Shown piece by piece: positions 46,903 to 55,980 of a stretch of 64,000 bases of DNA. A program made the translations under genes and the position numbers. The number at the start of each line of letters is the position of its first letter. Within the stretch, counting starts at the first letter, position 1. The notes under the pieces were generated by a model, which did no database searches, was not told where the DNA came from, and saw nothing but the letters and a program-made list of their open reading frames with translations. The stretch is taken from assembly GCA_011109175.1 (NCBI GenBank), contig RDEW01000058.1:6033-70032 (forward strand), given 5' to 3'. The DNA is from Dicyema japonicum. Lineage: Eukaryota > Dicyemida > Rhombozoa > Dicyemidae.

Positions 46903-47394
46903 TTAATTATTTATAAGATTCAGCGAGAGGTATTTTGTTTCACATTGTGGTCCCAGCATGCGTATTGTTTTCCTTTGCAGTAAGTTTAGTTTTTGGATAG
47001 TAGCCTCTGATAACGCGAATCTCCACGCAGCAGAAGCATATTCGACAGCCGGCGCGATTGTCTGGTGGTACATGGTTCCGATTGCTTTATTCATATTCGC
47101 TGGGGTCTTCTGGATGAGGGCCCGTGTGATATTCAATTTCTGTAGTCCTTTGGTGAAGACTTGTTTGGGATGGTCGGTAAAATTAAGCAGCCTGTCGTAT
47201 GTCACTTCCAGGATCGTGGGGTTTTTTGTGACAGGTATCCGAGTATGTCCGATGAAGATTTCTGGTTCTTTTTTGGACCGCCGGTCGGAGGTGAATAGAG
47301 TGCATGATGATTTTAGAGCCGATACCGAGAGACGGCTATAATCAAATCTGCAGCGACTGTAAGTAAATAATACAGTAATACAAAGATAATACAT
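46903..47394 (-). pseudogene. RT-B LINE, RT C-terminal part
   Basis: A 163-codon open frame: K-S-S-C-T-L-F-T-S-D-R-R-S-K-K-E-P-E-I-F-I, then R-I-P-V-T-K-N-P-T-I-L-E-V-T-Y-D-R-L-L-N-F, Y-H-Q-T-I-A-P-A-V-E-Y-A-S-A-A-W and K-L-N-L-L-Q-R-K-T-I-R-M-L-G. These blocks (K-x-x-x-T-L-F-T-S-D, N-P-x-I-L-G-V-T-x-D, E-Y-A-S-x-A-W) are the region after the catalytic box of jockey-type RTs. Better preserved than 26,950-27,480 (+), but the catalytic core is not included. Confidence 0.65.
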
Positions 47395-48786: not shown

Positions 48787-49366
48787 AAAGAAATTTTACA
48801 AATTTTGGTAATGTTGTATTTGAGTGACCTATATTTTTTTGGTGGGATTGACTGATATGCCAGTCATCCATCGGTCATAATTCTCGTCCCAGGAAATATG
48901 TGTCTTGTAATCACATCTTTCAAGGTTTCCGTCGATCTACAATGTTCAATATTTTTAAATAAACCTATCTTGAACCTCTGCAAGAAAACAGCGCCCTGTT
49001 CCGCGCTCGATTTCTCCAAGGACCCAATTACCTTCCCACCATTGACCGCGATGGTATTTGCGGTGGAAGAATTTAAACTTGTCGATTTCCACGACATTTG
49101 GTTCTATTAATTAGCAAAATAAATTTAAACGATTGTTTTTGTCAAGTCCACTAAGCAACTTTGGGACTGTCTCGAAACATGTCTCGCATGTTTTTCGACA
49201 AAAGTTATTCCAATCCACAACAGTTTTCTTGGATATTTCGAGTTCGAAAGCTACTTCGCAAACGAGATGTCTTTCGCCCACATACGCGTTAGCTCCAAAA
49301 TTGTTCTAAGACTTAGATGGCTACCTAAAAAATTAACAAAGATGCACTACCTTCAAACCATGAGTG
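48787..49366 (-). CDS. Merlin-type (IS1016/ISXO2-like) transposase with three ultra-short introns
   Basis: A DDE transposase of the Merlin superfamily, 5'-truncated. Reading on the minus strand: H-S-W-F-E-G | S-H-L-S-L-R-T-I-L-E-L-T-R-M-W, then F-E-L-E-I-S-K-K-T-V-V-D-W-N-N-F-C-R, V-V-E-I-D-K-F-K (first catalytic D), R-K-Y-H-R-G-Q-W-W-E-G-N-W-V-L-G, E-R-G-T-G-R-C-F-L-A-E-V-Q-D-R, S-T-E-T-L-K-D-V-I, P-G-T-R-I-M-T-D-G (second D) and L-A-Y. GT..AG introns at 49,325-49,350 (26 nt), 49,104-49,130 (27 nt) and 48,937-48,964 (28 nt) must be removed to join these conserved blocks in frame. Breaks: one missing T near 49,260 and a TGA where the family has Trp after the second D. The C-terminal Glu region is absent. 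Confidence 0.75.
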
Positions 49367-49532
49367 ACTATCTAGAAAATGAGGGGAATCTATGGAGAAT
49401 GAGACCGTCCCCGTTTTTACCAATTCTGTTGGATCTTCGAGGACCCCGAACGACAGCCAGAACCCGGAAAACCGGGATCACTTAGTTAGTAGTTAACTTT
49501 TACTAATCCGGTGATCTTGGAGTAAAAAATCT
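49366..49532 (+). repeat. RT-B-like 3' end with hairpin, inserted into the transposase gene
   Basis: The frame ends R-T-T-A-R-T-R-K-T-G-I-T-stop, with the stop in hairpin arm GGGATCAC (49,474-49,481). The partner GTGATCTT is at 49,511-49,518, then GGAGTAAAAAATCT. The last 165 bp match the inverted insert at 55,397-55,628. It interrupts the 5' part of the Merlin transposase. Confidence 0.6.
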
Positions 49533-54446: not shown

Positions 54447-55980
54447 CTATCGTAGAAACATAATTGTTATATTTCCACACGAGCTTAAAGCGATTTTTCT
54501 GATCAATCTCGTCCATCCTCCCCTGTTACACGTCAAACTTTCCATAGCATCCAGATGCTTGCCATTTACGAGCCTCCGGTTGATTGCTTTGAGATCCCGG
54601 TAGCGTAGTACGCGGGCGCCCCCGATATTTTTTTCCACTTGCAGCGAAATATTCCTCCATTGCCAAATTTGCAGGTGATGTGGGACGTGTTCAAACAGTC
54701 TCCATAGGGCCTCCACCACATCTTAAGTCACAGGTCGCGTTGAGCACTTCCGGTGCAGTGCCTCATTGATGATCCGTGTCGGCCATTGTACCCCGCACAG
54801 TATTCGTAATTGCATTCGGTGGAAGGAGTTAAGATTTTTGGTTTCTGAGACCTAGGTCCTCCAGCAAAAAAAGTTATATAACAAGACCCGCTTCACAAAA
54901 GCATTGTAGAGGCGCGATTGTTACCGGTCTGTTAGTCAACCAATCCGTCTTCATCCTGTTAAGTGCGACCGTCGATAGTACTTTTCTTCGGTTATGTCTC
55001 ATTGTCTCCGAGGAGGGAGCCGAGCTTTCTGGAACGTCTCCATTCCTCTTCCAATCTTGATCCCATCGTACGATTTCCACAAAATCAGTTTTAGTTGTAT
55101 TCACCGTAAGAAACCATTTCCCAAGCTCTGCAGGAGCAACGTCAAGTACCCGCCTCATGGCTGGTTTATTTTCCGATACAAAATCCACATCATCAGCGTA
55201 TATAATTTCGGTGATTTGGCTATTATACAAACTTTGAAGACCACGTAGTGCTGCTTCCAGGTATACCACAAACAGCAAAGGGGAAAGGGAGTCTCCCTGG
55301 GGGTACCCACAATCGTCGAAAAATTTCTGGACGACGTACTCCCAGTTCTTTGCTCGATAATAAAACTTGTATCATCCTGACAGAATCCCTATTAAGTTAA
55401 AAGTTAACTACTAACTAAGTGATCCCGGTTTTCCGGGTTCTGGCTCTCGTTCGGGGTCCTCAAAGATCCAACAGAATTGGTAAAAACGGGGACGGTCTCA
55501 TTCTCCATAGATTCCCTACATTTTCTAGATAGTCGGATGTAGAAAGTGAATGCGGACATCCTGTTTTCATTGCCTACTGTAGAAATGACTTCACTCTCCA
55601 CCTTAGATATTCTTGGGGTAAAAAATCTCTATTAAGGAATCCCCAAAGCAGCAATAAGCTTTCCTTGGCGTATTGTGTCGAAAGCTCTCGACGTGTCGAT
55701 CCCCAAAATTGTAGTCTCACTCTCAAATCTTTGGTAAGTGACACAACGCCACCTATGCCCCCAGACCACATCAGCGGTAGATCTGCCTGTCCTGAATCCA
55801 CTGTGGCTCGAGGACAGGAATTCATTCACAGGCTCTTACACACGATTCAGCACCACCAGAGCAAGGACCTTTCTTAGCGTATTGAGTAGGATGACTGGGC
55901 GCAGGTTTTCCACAGGGCCCGCCCTTTTATTCGGTTTTTGAATCGGGACCAGATTTCCTTTACCCAACAGAAGGTCGTTA
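54447..55980 (-). pseudogene. RT-A relative (second subfamily), RT domain, split by an insertion
   Basis: On the minus strand: G-N-L-V-P-I-Q-K-P-N-K, E-N-L-R-P-V-I-L-L-N-T-L-R-K, S-G-F-R-T-G-R-S-T-A-D-V-V-W-G, G-I-D-T-S-R-A-F-D-T-I, then (after the insert) L-F-V-V-Y-L-E-A-A-L-R, I-I-Y-A-D-D-V-D-F-V-S-E, W-F-L-T-V-N-T-T-K-T and near the end W-R-L-F-E. All RT boxes are recognisable, including Y-A-D-D, but several frame changes, the insertion at 55,397-55,628 and a decayed V-P-x-G-x box make it inactive. Divergence from the intact RT-A suggests a sister subfamily. Confidence 0.75.
55397..55628 (-). mobile_element. RT-B-like insertion with inverted 5' part (twin-priming form)
   Basis: A 232-bp insert flanked by CTATTAAG at 55,389-55,396 and 55,629-55,636. 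The first about 212 bp are the reverse complement of an RT-B-like 3' region (matching 49,366-49,500 +) and begin TTAAAAGTTAACTACTAACT. The last about 20 bp, ATTCTTGGGGTAAAAAATCT, are the forward 3' terminus of the same family. Inverted 5' segment plus short forward 3' segment within one target-site duplication is what twin priming by a LINE enzyme leaves. Confidence 0.6.

Follow-up and report, generated by a model that had tools for sequence, protein, structure and literature searches.

The window analysed here (64,000 nt of the Dicyema japonicum contig RDEW01000058.1; positions count from its first letter) contains the remains of a Merlin-type transposase gene interrupted by very short introns. 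Comparisons across the assembly and with external proteins confirm, at the level of sequence, that the three interrupting segments are introns of the minimal type found in the host's own genes and not random insertions. The best explanation, which we consider likely, is that the locus is a dead copy of a host-spliced Merlin transposon and that its introns were gained within the transposon lineage, independently of those found in a second Merlin family (family C) and in a Tc1-like family. Repeated independent intron gain in cut-and-paste transposons of one host lineage is the simplest account, because no intron position is shared, a probable sister family is intronless and two transposon superfamilies are affected.

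On the minus strand, positions 49367 to 48842 encode the middle of an ISXO2/IS1016-like transposase, which runs directly into a terminal inverted repeat (TIR; Table 1). This copy, a member of the Merlin family termed A, is dead, internally deleted and 5'-truncated: both ends of the protein are missing, the C-terminal one with the third catalytic residue, and of the two TIRs just the 3' one is left. A sequence-only reading of the window had proposed three ultra-short introns, and the spliced aligner re-found them with exactly the proposed boundaries and lengths (28, 27 and 26 nt), all GT..AG on the minus strand. The same reading held that the conserved blocks join in frame once the segments are spliced out; the joins are indeed codon-true against external proteins, but the window copy keeps a frame shift near 49270 and an in-frame stop after splicing. 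Intron 2 was missed in the window copy by the external queries (<15% of 50), since only 17 nt of the upstream exon are left there. Taken alone, the window frame 48864-49097 scored 12.1 bits against PF12762, under the cut-off of 27. The truncation adjoins a repeat of ~135 bp (49366-49500), which has a second copy in the window at 55400-55534 and, across the genome, no fewer than 26 additional matches at 96-97% identity. Elsewhere in the window, the GC content of which is 34.7%, an open frame at 46903-47394 on the minus strand (163 aa) resembles, by eye, what we take to be the tail of a non-LTR reverse transcriptase; a Pfam search with this frame at 0.001 gave no match.

Table 1. Features of the Merlin relic in the window, and intron sites of family A (slashes mark intron positions)
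Feature	Coordinates	Strand	Evidence or remark
3' TIR of the Merlin relic	48807..48840	-	GGTAATG... on the plus strand; inverse match to the ends of C83, C88 and C122; MITE ends
Partial exon 5 (STETLKDVIT..DG-LAYQSI), internal deletion into the 3' TIR	48842..48936	-	spliced alignment
Intron 4 of family A, 28 nt, phase 2, D/RSTET	48937..48964	-	48/50 external queries (window copy)
Exon 4 (VVEID..HRKYHRGQWWEGNWVLGEIERGTGRCFLAEVQD), catalytic core with the first D	48965..49103	-	tblastn, profile and spliced alignment
Intron 3, 27 nt, phase 1, NN/QPNVVEID	49104..49130	-	49/50 external queries (window copy)
Exon 3 (SHLSLRTIL..VDWNNFC..), frame shift near 49270	49131..49324	-	spliced alignment
Intron 2, 26 nt, phase 1, WFE/GSHLSL	49325..49350	-	family-A query; 47/50 external queries each in C83 and C88
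End of exon 2, last 17 nt (..HSWFE); truncation point	49351..49367	-	similarity to other copies stops at 49367
Unrelated multi-copy repeat adjoining the truncation	49368..49500	.	at least 26 further matches, 96-97% identity (40 scored of 152 candidates)
Family-A intron sites 1-5: CRSCK/IYC (phase 0), WFE/GSHLS (1), NN/QPKVVEID (1), D/RSTET (2), QY/GTSNQ (1)			

The searched assembly comprises 64.7 Mb in 191 contigs; the D. japonicum genome has been reported, in the accessible part of the source, at 67.5 Mb with a GC content of 36.7% (PMC6736024). The assembly contains a paralog, C83:801588-802958, an element of 1371 bp with inverted ends of ~100 bp (89.7% match over 107 columns) and with the same three introns plus two more, which raises the count for the family from the three first noticed to at least five. 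With this element as DNA query, 60 matches were obtained at ~35 places, many of them fragments. Complete copies had been expected to show TIRs with target-site duplications, and among the 17 end pairs scanned we found an exact duplication of 8 bp at C83 and one of 7 bp at C120, with none at the remaining pairs. Merlin target-site duplications are said, by Feschotte in 2004, to measure 8-9 bp. The assignment to a Merlin-type transposase is borne out by the spliced mosaic read-through, which reached 51.2 bits against PF12762 (cut-off 27); the mosaic protein retrieved 456 homologues, those at the top of the list covering 92-99% of the query with 48-50% identity, and several of these bear animal names (Hydra, Pycnogonum, Biomphalaria). 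A complete DDE triad is readable in C83 if, as we assume, its residues lie in VEIDES, ITDGW and IENLW. A MITE-like group of six shorter copies (C122:305883-306330, C132, C131:277k, C117, C110:440k and C170:1197k; ~450 bp in C122 and C117) shares one internal deletion, and the three MITEs examined at the 3' end (C122, C132 and C117) show a 3' deletion like that in exon 5 of the window copy. The right joint of the shared deletion coincides exactly with the 3' boundary of intron 3; a trace of splicing was considered and rejected, since the opposite side is not a GT donor, and the joint is read as an ordinary internal deletion.

The gene in C83 and in a second copy, C88, consists of at least six exons separated by five GT-AG introns of 25-28 nt, according to spliced alignment. 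As an external test, the best 50 of the 456 homologues were placed on each copy by spliced alignment, any GT..AG intron of 18-60 nt being permitted. Sites 1-5 were recovered at the same bases by 47, 47, 50, 49 and 49 of the 50 queries in C83, and by 47, 47, 48 (38 in phase 1, 10 in phase 2), 50 and 49 in C88, where 10 of 50 queries also gave a stray 40-nt intron call near the end. In the more decayed C126, site 1 (42/50) and site 3 (50/50) were recovered and site 2 was not; in C129, 27 of 50 queries put site 2 at one donor and 23 at another close by, and 49 of 50 found site 3. Among fetched copies spanning sites 1-5, the segment was present in 9/11, 8/8, 7/7, 13/13 and 6/6, respectively, the two exceptions at site 1 having larger deletions there. 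None of these copies bore unrelated or coding sequence at the three sites of the window, the pattern that the sequence-only reading had named as the mark of random gaps in a dead gene. Splice dinucleotides have been lost at site 1 in C129:187k, site 2 in C126 and C135, site 3 in C120 and site 5 in C120. A search for the spliced junction of site 4 (the 28-nt intron) at up to 3 mismatches gave no match in the assembly, so that no copy processed at this junction came to light.

Family-A copies decay neutrally: pairwise differences amount to 7.5% for codon positions 1+2, 7.2% for position 3 and 6.0% for intron interiors, with no codon-position bias and no sign of purifying selection between copies. 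Gap cells make up 4.2% of intron interiors versus 0.9-1.5% of codon positions. Because of this neutral decay, segments common to the copies attest only common descent, and since all family-A introns derive from one master copy, their presence in every copy counts as a single observation; nor, without codon-position bias, can selection on splicing be read from family A alone. For the case for introns, as read from sequence, we rely on the external proteins and on family C, whose intron set differs. The choice of splice dinucleotides was assessed by scoring all 256 donor/acceptor pairs with five external queries per locus. By gain, GT-AG ranked first in C83, second in C88 and first in C66 of family C, and it came first when the ranking was confined to pairs having no more than double its candidate sites (212, 201 and 236 pairs, respectively). 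For C83 and C88 this was a stricter repeat, to which C66 was added, of an earlier test on ten loci with introns of 18-60 nt, which was too permissive; there GT-AG had ranked 1, 1 and 2 in three family-A loci with a family-B probe, and 29, 9, 4, 23 and 4 in five decayed family-C loci with a C66 probe.

Two further Merlin families were compared with family A. Family B, which is probably its sister family, is represented by three decayed partial loci (C177, C162 and C64), 32-50% identical to family A over the matched pieces. Sites 1-5 are covered by 1, 1, 2, 2 and 1 of these loci, and at none of the covered sites was an intron found, no call in the three loci reaching 15% of 50 external queries; frame shifts lie near two of the sites, and the single best query places a 23-nt intron near the end of C64. 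Family C (C66, C179, C181, C2, C114, C34 and C94:700k) forms a separate Merlin clade with five or six introns of 22-31 nt overall. In C66, introns of 26, 22, 26, 23 and 26 nt were placed by 49, 50, 50, 50 and 50 of 50 queries, the family-C queries being the best 50 of 820 homologues. Its relatives, mostly partial, have introns of 22-31 nt at the same positions with less secure placement (18-50 of 50 queries): all five sites in C179 (19, 48, 43, 50 and 41), the last three in C181 (32, 50 and 46) and C114 (45, 49 and 28), and the first two in C2 (44 and 29). C34 has two family-C sites only, the first of them weak (18/50), and C94 one further site (48/50). Intron interiors are loosely alike, with 16-20 identical of 27-34 aligned positions, and position and frame stay constant while length and content drift, as is usual for introns. 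A 29-nt phase-0 call in C179, C181 and C114 (45, 50 and 44 of 50) starts with conserved Val-Glu codons and so may not mark the true boundary in these copies; C110:69905, which aligned poorly with apparent introns of 30-55 nt, was left out of the later family comparison. Group-D loci (C21, C94:210k, C137, C114:523k and C131:362k) were covered by tblastn.

In the joint alignment, the introns of family A fall at columns 172, 223, 307, 356 and 479 and those of family C at 218, 298, 382, 412, 433/435 and 491, with zero overlap; single-query alignments gave stray introns at columns 236, 384, 400, 505 and 515. A tree of 80 rows, nine from this genome (2 of 5 family-A, 2 of 3 family-B and 5 of 7 family-C rows of that alignment) and 71 of the 240 listed external proteins, separates family A, together with B, from family C in two clades with a 100/100 split, each alongside 35-36 external proteins. 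The grouping of A with B has 93/85 support; the joins inside family C are weak and include two long branches. The external relatives are predicted proteins, mostly from sources that appear to predict uninterrupted frames. They are therefore biased towards single frames, as intron-bearing genes would come out broken in such predictions, and these sources probably under-report intron-bearing relatives.

Tiny introns were also found in a second superfamily. The PF13358 profile gave 146 Tc1-like matches in the assembly, and three fetched loci (L086-L088) have a single uninterrupted frame of 308-344 aa. Locus L090 (C127:240700-242400) has introns of 24 and 28 nt, each placed by 14/14 external queries; in L091 (C77:226300-227900) the first was again placed by 14/14, and the second, lacking a GT donor, was not recovered. 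Both loci contain frame shifts. Six loci show the same split as L090 and L091 in the PF13358 search.

The introns of the host are of the same size. Actin gave 68 matches in the assembly, and the three loci read, two of them distinct, have introns of 27 and 27 nt and of 27 and 22 nt, so that 25-28 nt in family A compares with 22-27 nt in two host actin loci. Two of the loci, L084 (C94:965109-966273) and L085 (C94:1001667-1002831), lie on one contig in opposite orientation with the same spliced alignment and introns, and represent either a recent inverted duplication or an assembly effect. The assembly also contains one Wnt gene and 67 homeodomain matches, which mark it as an animal's. For predicted host genes of Dicyema sp., the accessible part of one report gives a median intron length of 27 bp (PMC6543705).

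These observations are consistent with the following course of events. An intact family-A element would have consisted of TIRs of ~100 bp around one transposase gene of at least six exons, the five GT-AG introns of 25-28 nt being removed by the host spliceosome; the resulting DDE transposase of ~300 aa would have excised the element via its TIRs, and its reinsertion would have duplicated 8 bp of the target. For the introns, gain inside the family-A transposon lineage and within this host lineage is the most probable origin, ahead of retention with differential loss, and family C and one Tc1-like family would have gained other mini-introns at other sites independently. Of the two alternatives offered by the sequence-only reading, gain by the transposon while living in this genome is the one we favour. 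For the broader proposition that at least three transposon lineages (two Merlin clades and one Tc1-like) each acquired their own introns of 22-31 nt after host entry, with intronless sister families, we would put the chances at about even. As for the source of the introns, similarity of 23 introns to the 45 nt on each side was at about chance level over 1000 shuffles (3 of 46 comparisons below 0.05, the lowest 0.022), and tandem duplication of the flanking exon was rejected as their origin. Intron 4 has 14 matches in the genome and intron 3 has 7, all at family-A places and none outside Merlin; without near-identical copies at unrelated sites, these two introns do not qualify as introners.

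The principal competing view derives the introns from an older Merlin transposase rich in introns: the three families would have retained different subsets, B having lost every one. For plant CACTA transposases, intron loss has been put forward as the chief process in the accessible text of PMC4158355. Two family-A introns, 2 and 3, have a family-C intron a few residues away (columns 223/218 and 307/298), both pairs in phase 1, and C34 and C94 lack some family-C sites in unbroken aligned stretches, so that loss or gain inside family C does happen. Against this stands the fact that no position is common to A and C: at least ten ancestral introns and complementary losses would be needed, in clades of full-length predicted relatives. 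P0123, nearest to family C in the tree, has 292 aa on a contig of 982 nt, and P0099 has 324 aa, its longest contig measuring 1055 nt; neither leaves room for a full intron set. We regard ancestral introns as rather unlikely.

The other readings are far less probable. The second alternative of the sequence-only reading, a host gene domesticated long ago and carrying the host's usual introns, draws on the host-type introns at conserved places in the gene, and introns are frequent in domesticated transposases; such a gene would hardly be multi-copy, flanked by TIRs, bordered by target-site duplications at two copies and accompanied by MITE derivatives, nor would its codon positions 1+2, position 3 and introns diverge almost alike, with no sign of constraint, and we judge domestication to be highly improbable. 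That the window copy is dead, with its frame shift, stop and truncations, would suit random intron-like insertions, a reading we consider the least credible of all given that the segments occur in all fetched copies spanning sites 2-5 and in 9/11 at site 1, and that their joins are codon-true against external proteins. Differences between germline and soma DNA are known in dicyemids, and the segments might be removed as DNA, by programmed elimination of the IES kind, instead of by splicing. Circular contigs have also been reported for Dicyema sp. in the accessible part of PMC6543705. The GT..AG ends of the segments, the presence of segments of the same size and type in host actin genes and the lack of any assembled copy with a site-4 junction make such elimination very unlikely.

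Host-spliced transposons with introns gained in this lineage, the reading we prefer, would bear on how introns arise in animals. In animals, intron gains are few and ancient, which makes them difficult to observe. Transposon families, by comparison, presumably arrive intronless, multiply and can be dated through copy divergence. If different families gained different tiny introns independently, animal intron gain would become testable family by family, and datable transposon families would provide a rare direct clock for it. A transposon that needs host splicing of minimal introns may also be tied to hosts with such introns.

Variable transposase introns and dicyemid mini-introns are both known; for their combination we found no report in the literature searched. 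No report of introns in Merlin or dicyemid transposons was found in that literature, which included few subscription papers and the accessible parts of PMC6736024, PMC6543705, PMC9942856, PMC2685015, PMC1636069 and PMC4495683. Blepharisma has tiny introns and a Merlin-type domain, and the accessible text of its report mentions no introns in transposons (PMC9942856). Family A resembles Merlin, the animal relatives of bacterial IS1016/IS1595/ISXO2, in its PF12762 domain, 8-bp duplication and compactness (1371 bp); the Merlin element of S. mansoni is given as 1.4 kb, most copies being internal-deletion derivatives, in the accessible part of PMC1636069. It differs in its five spliceosomal-type introns of 25-28 nt, the relatives retrieved being predicted proteins. 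The minimal introns described in dicyemids, as far as the accessible text goes, have the same length and GT-AG type, but occur there in host genes and here in transposons (PMC6543705). In plant CACTA and Mariner-like transposases, too, related families differ in intron number and position; in the accessible part of that study, loss is the main reading for CACTA, whereas the present case concerns an animal, minimal introns, two superfamilies and non-overlapping intron sets (PMC4158355). Introners, as described in the accessible sections of PMC9860276, likewise tie rapid intron gain to transposable elements, but they become introns in genes, whereas the introns described here sit inside the transposons themselves.
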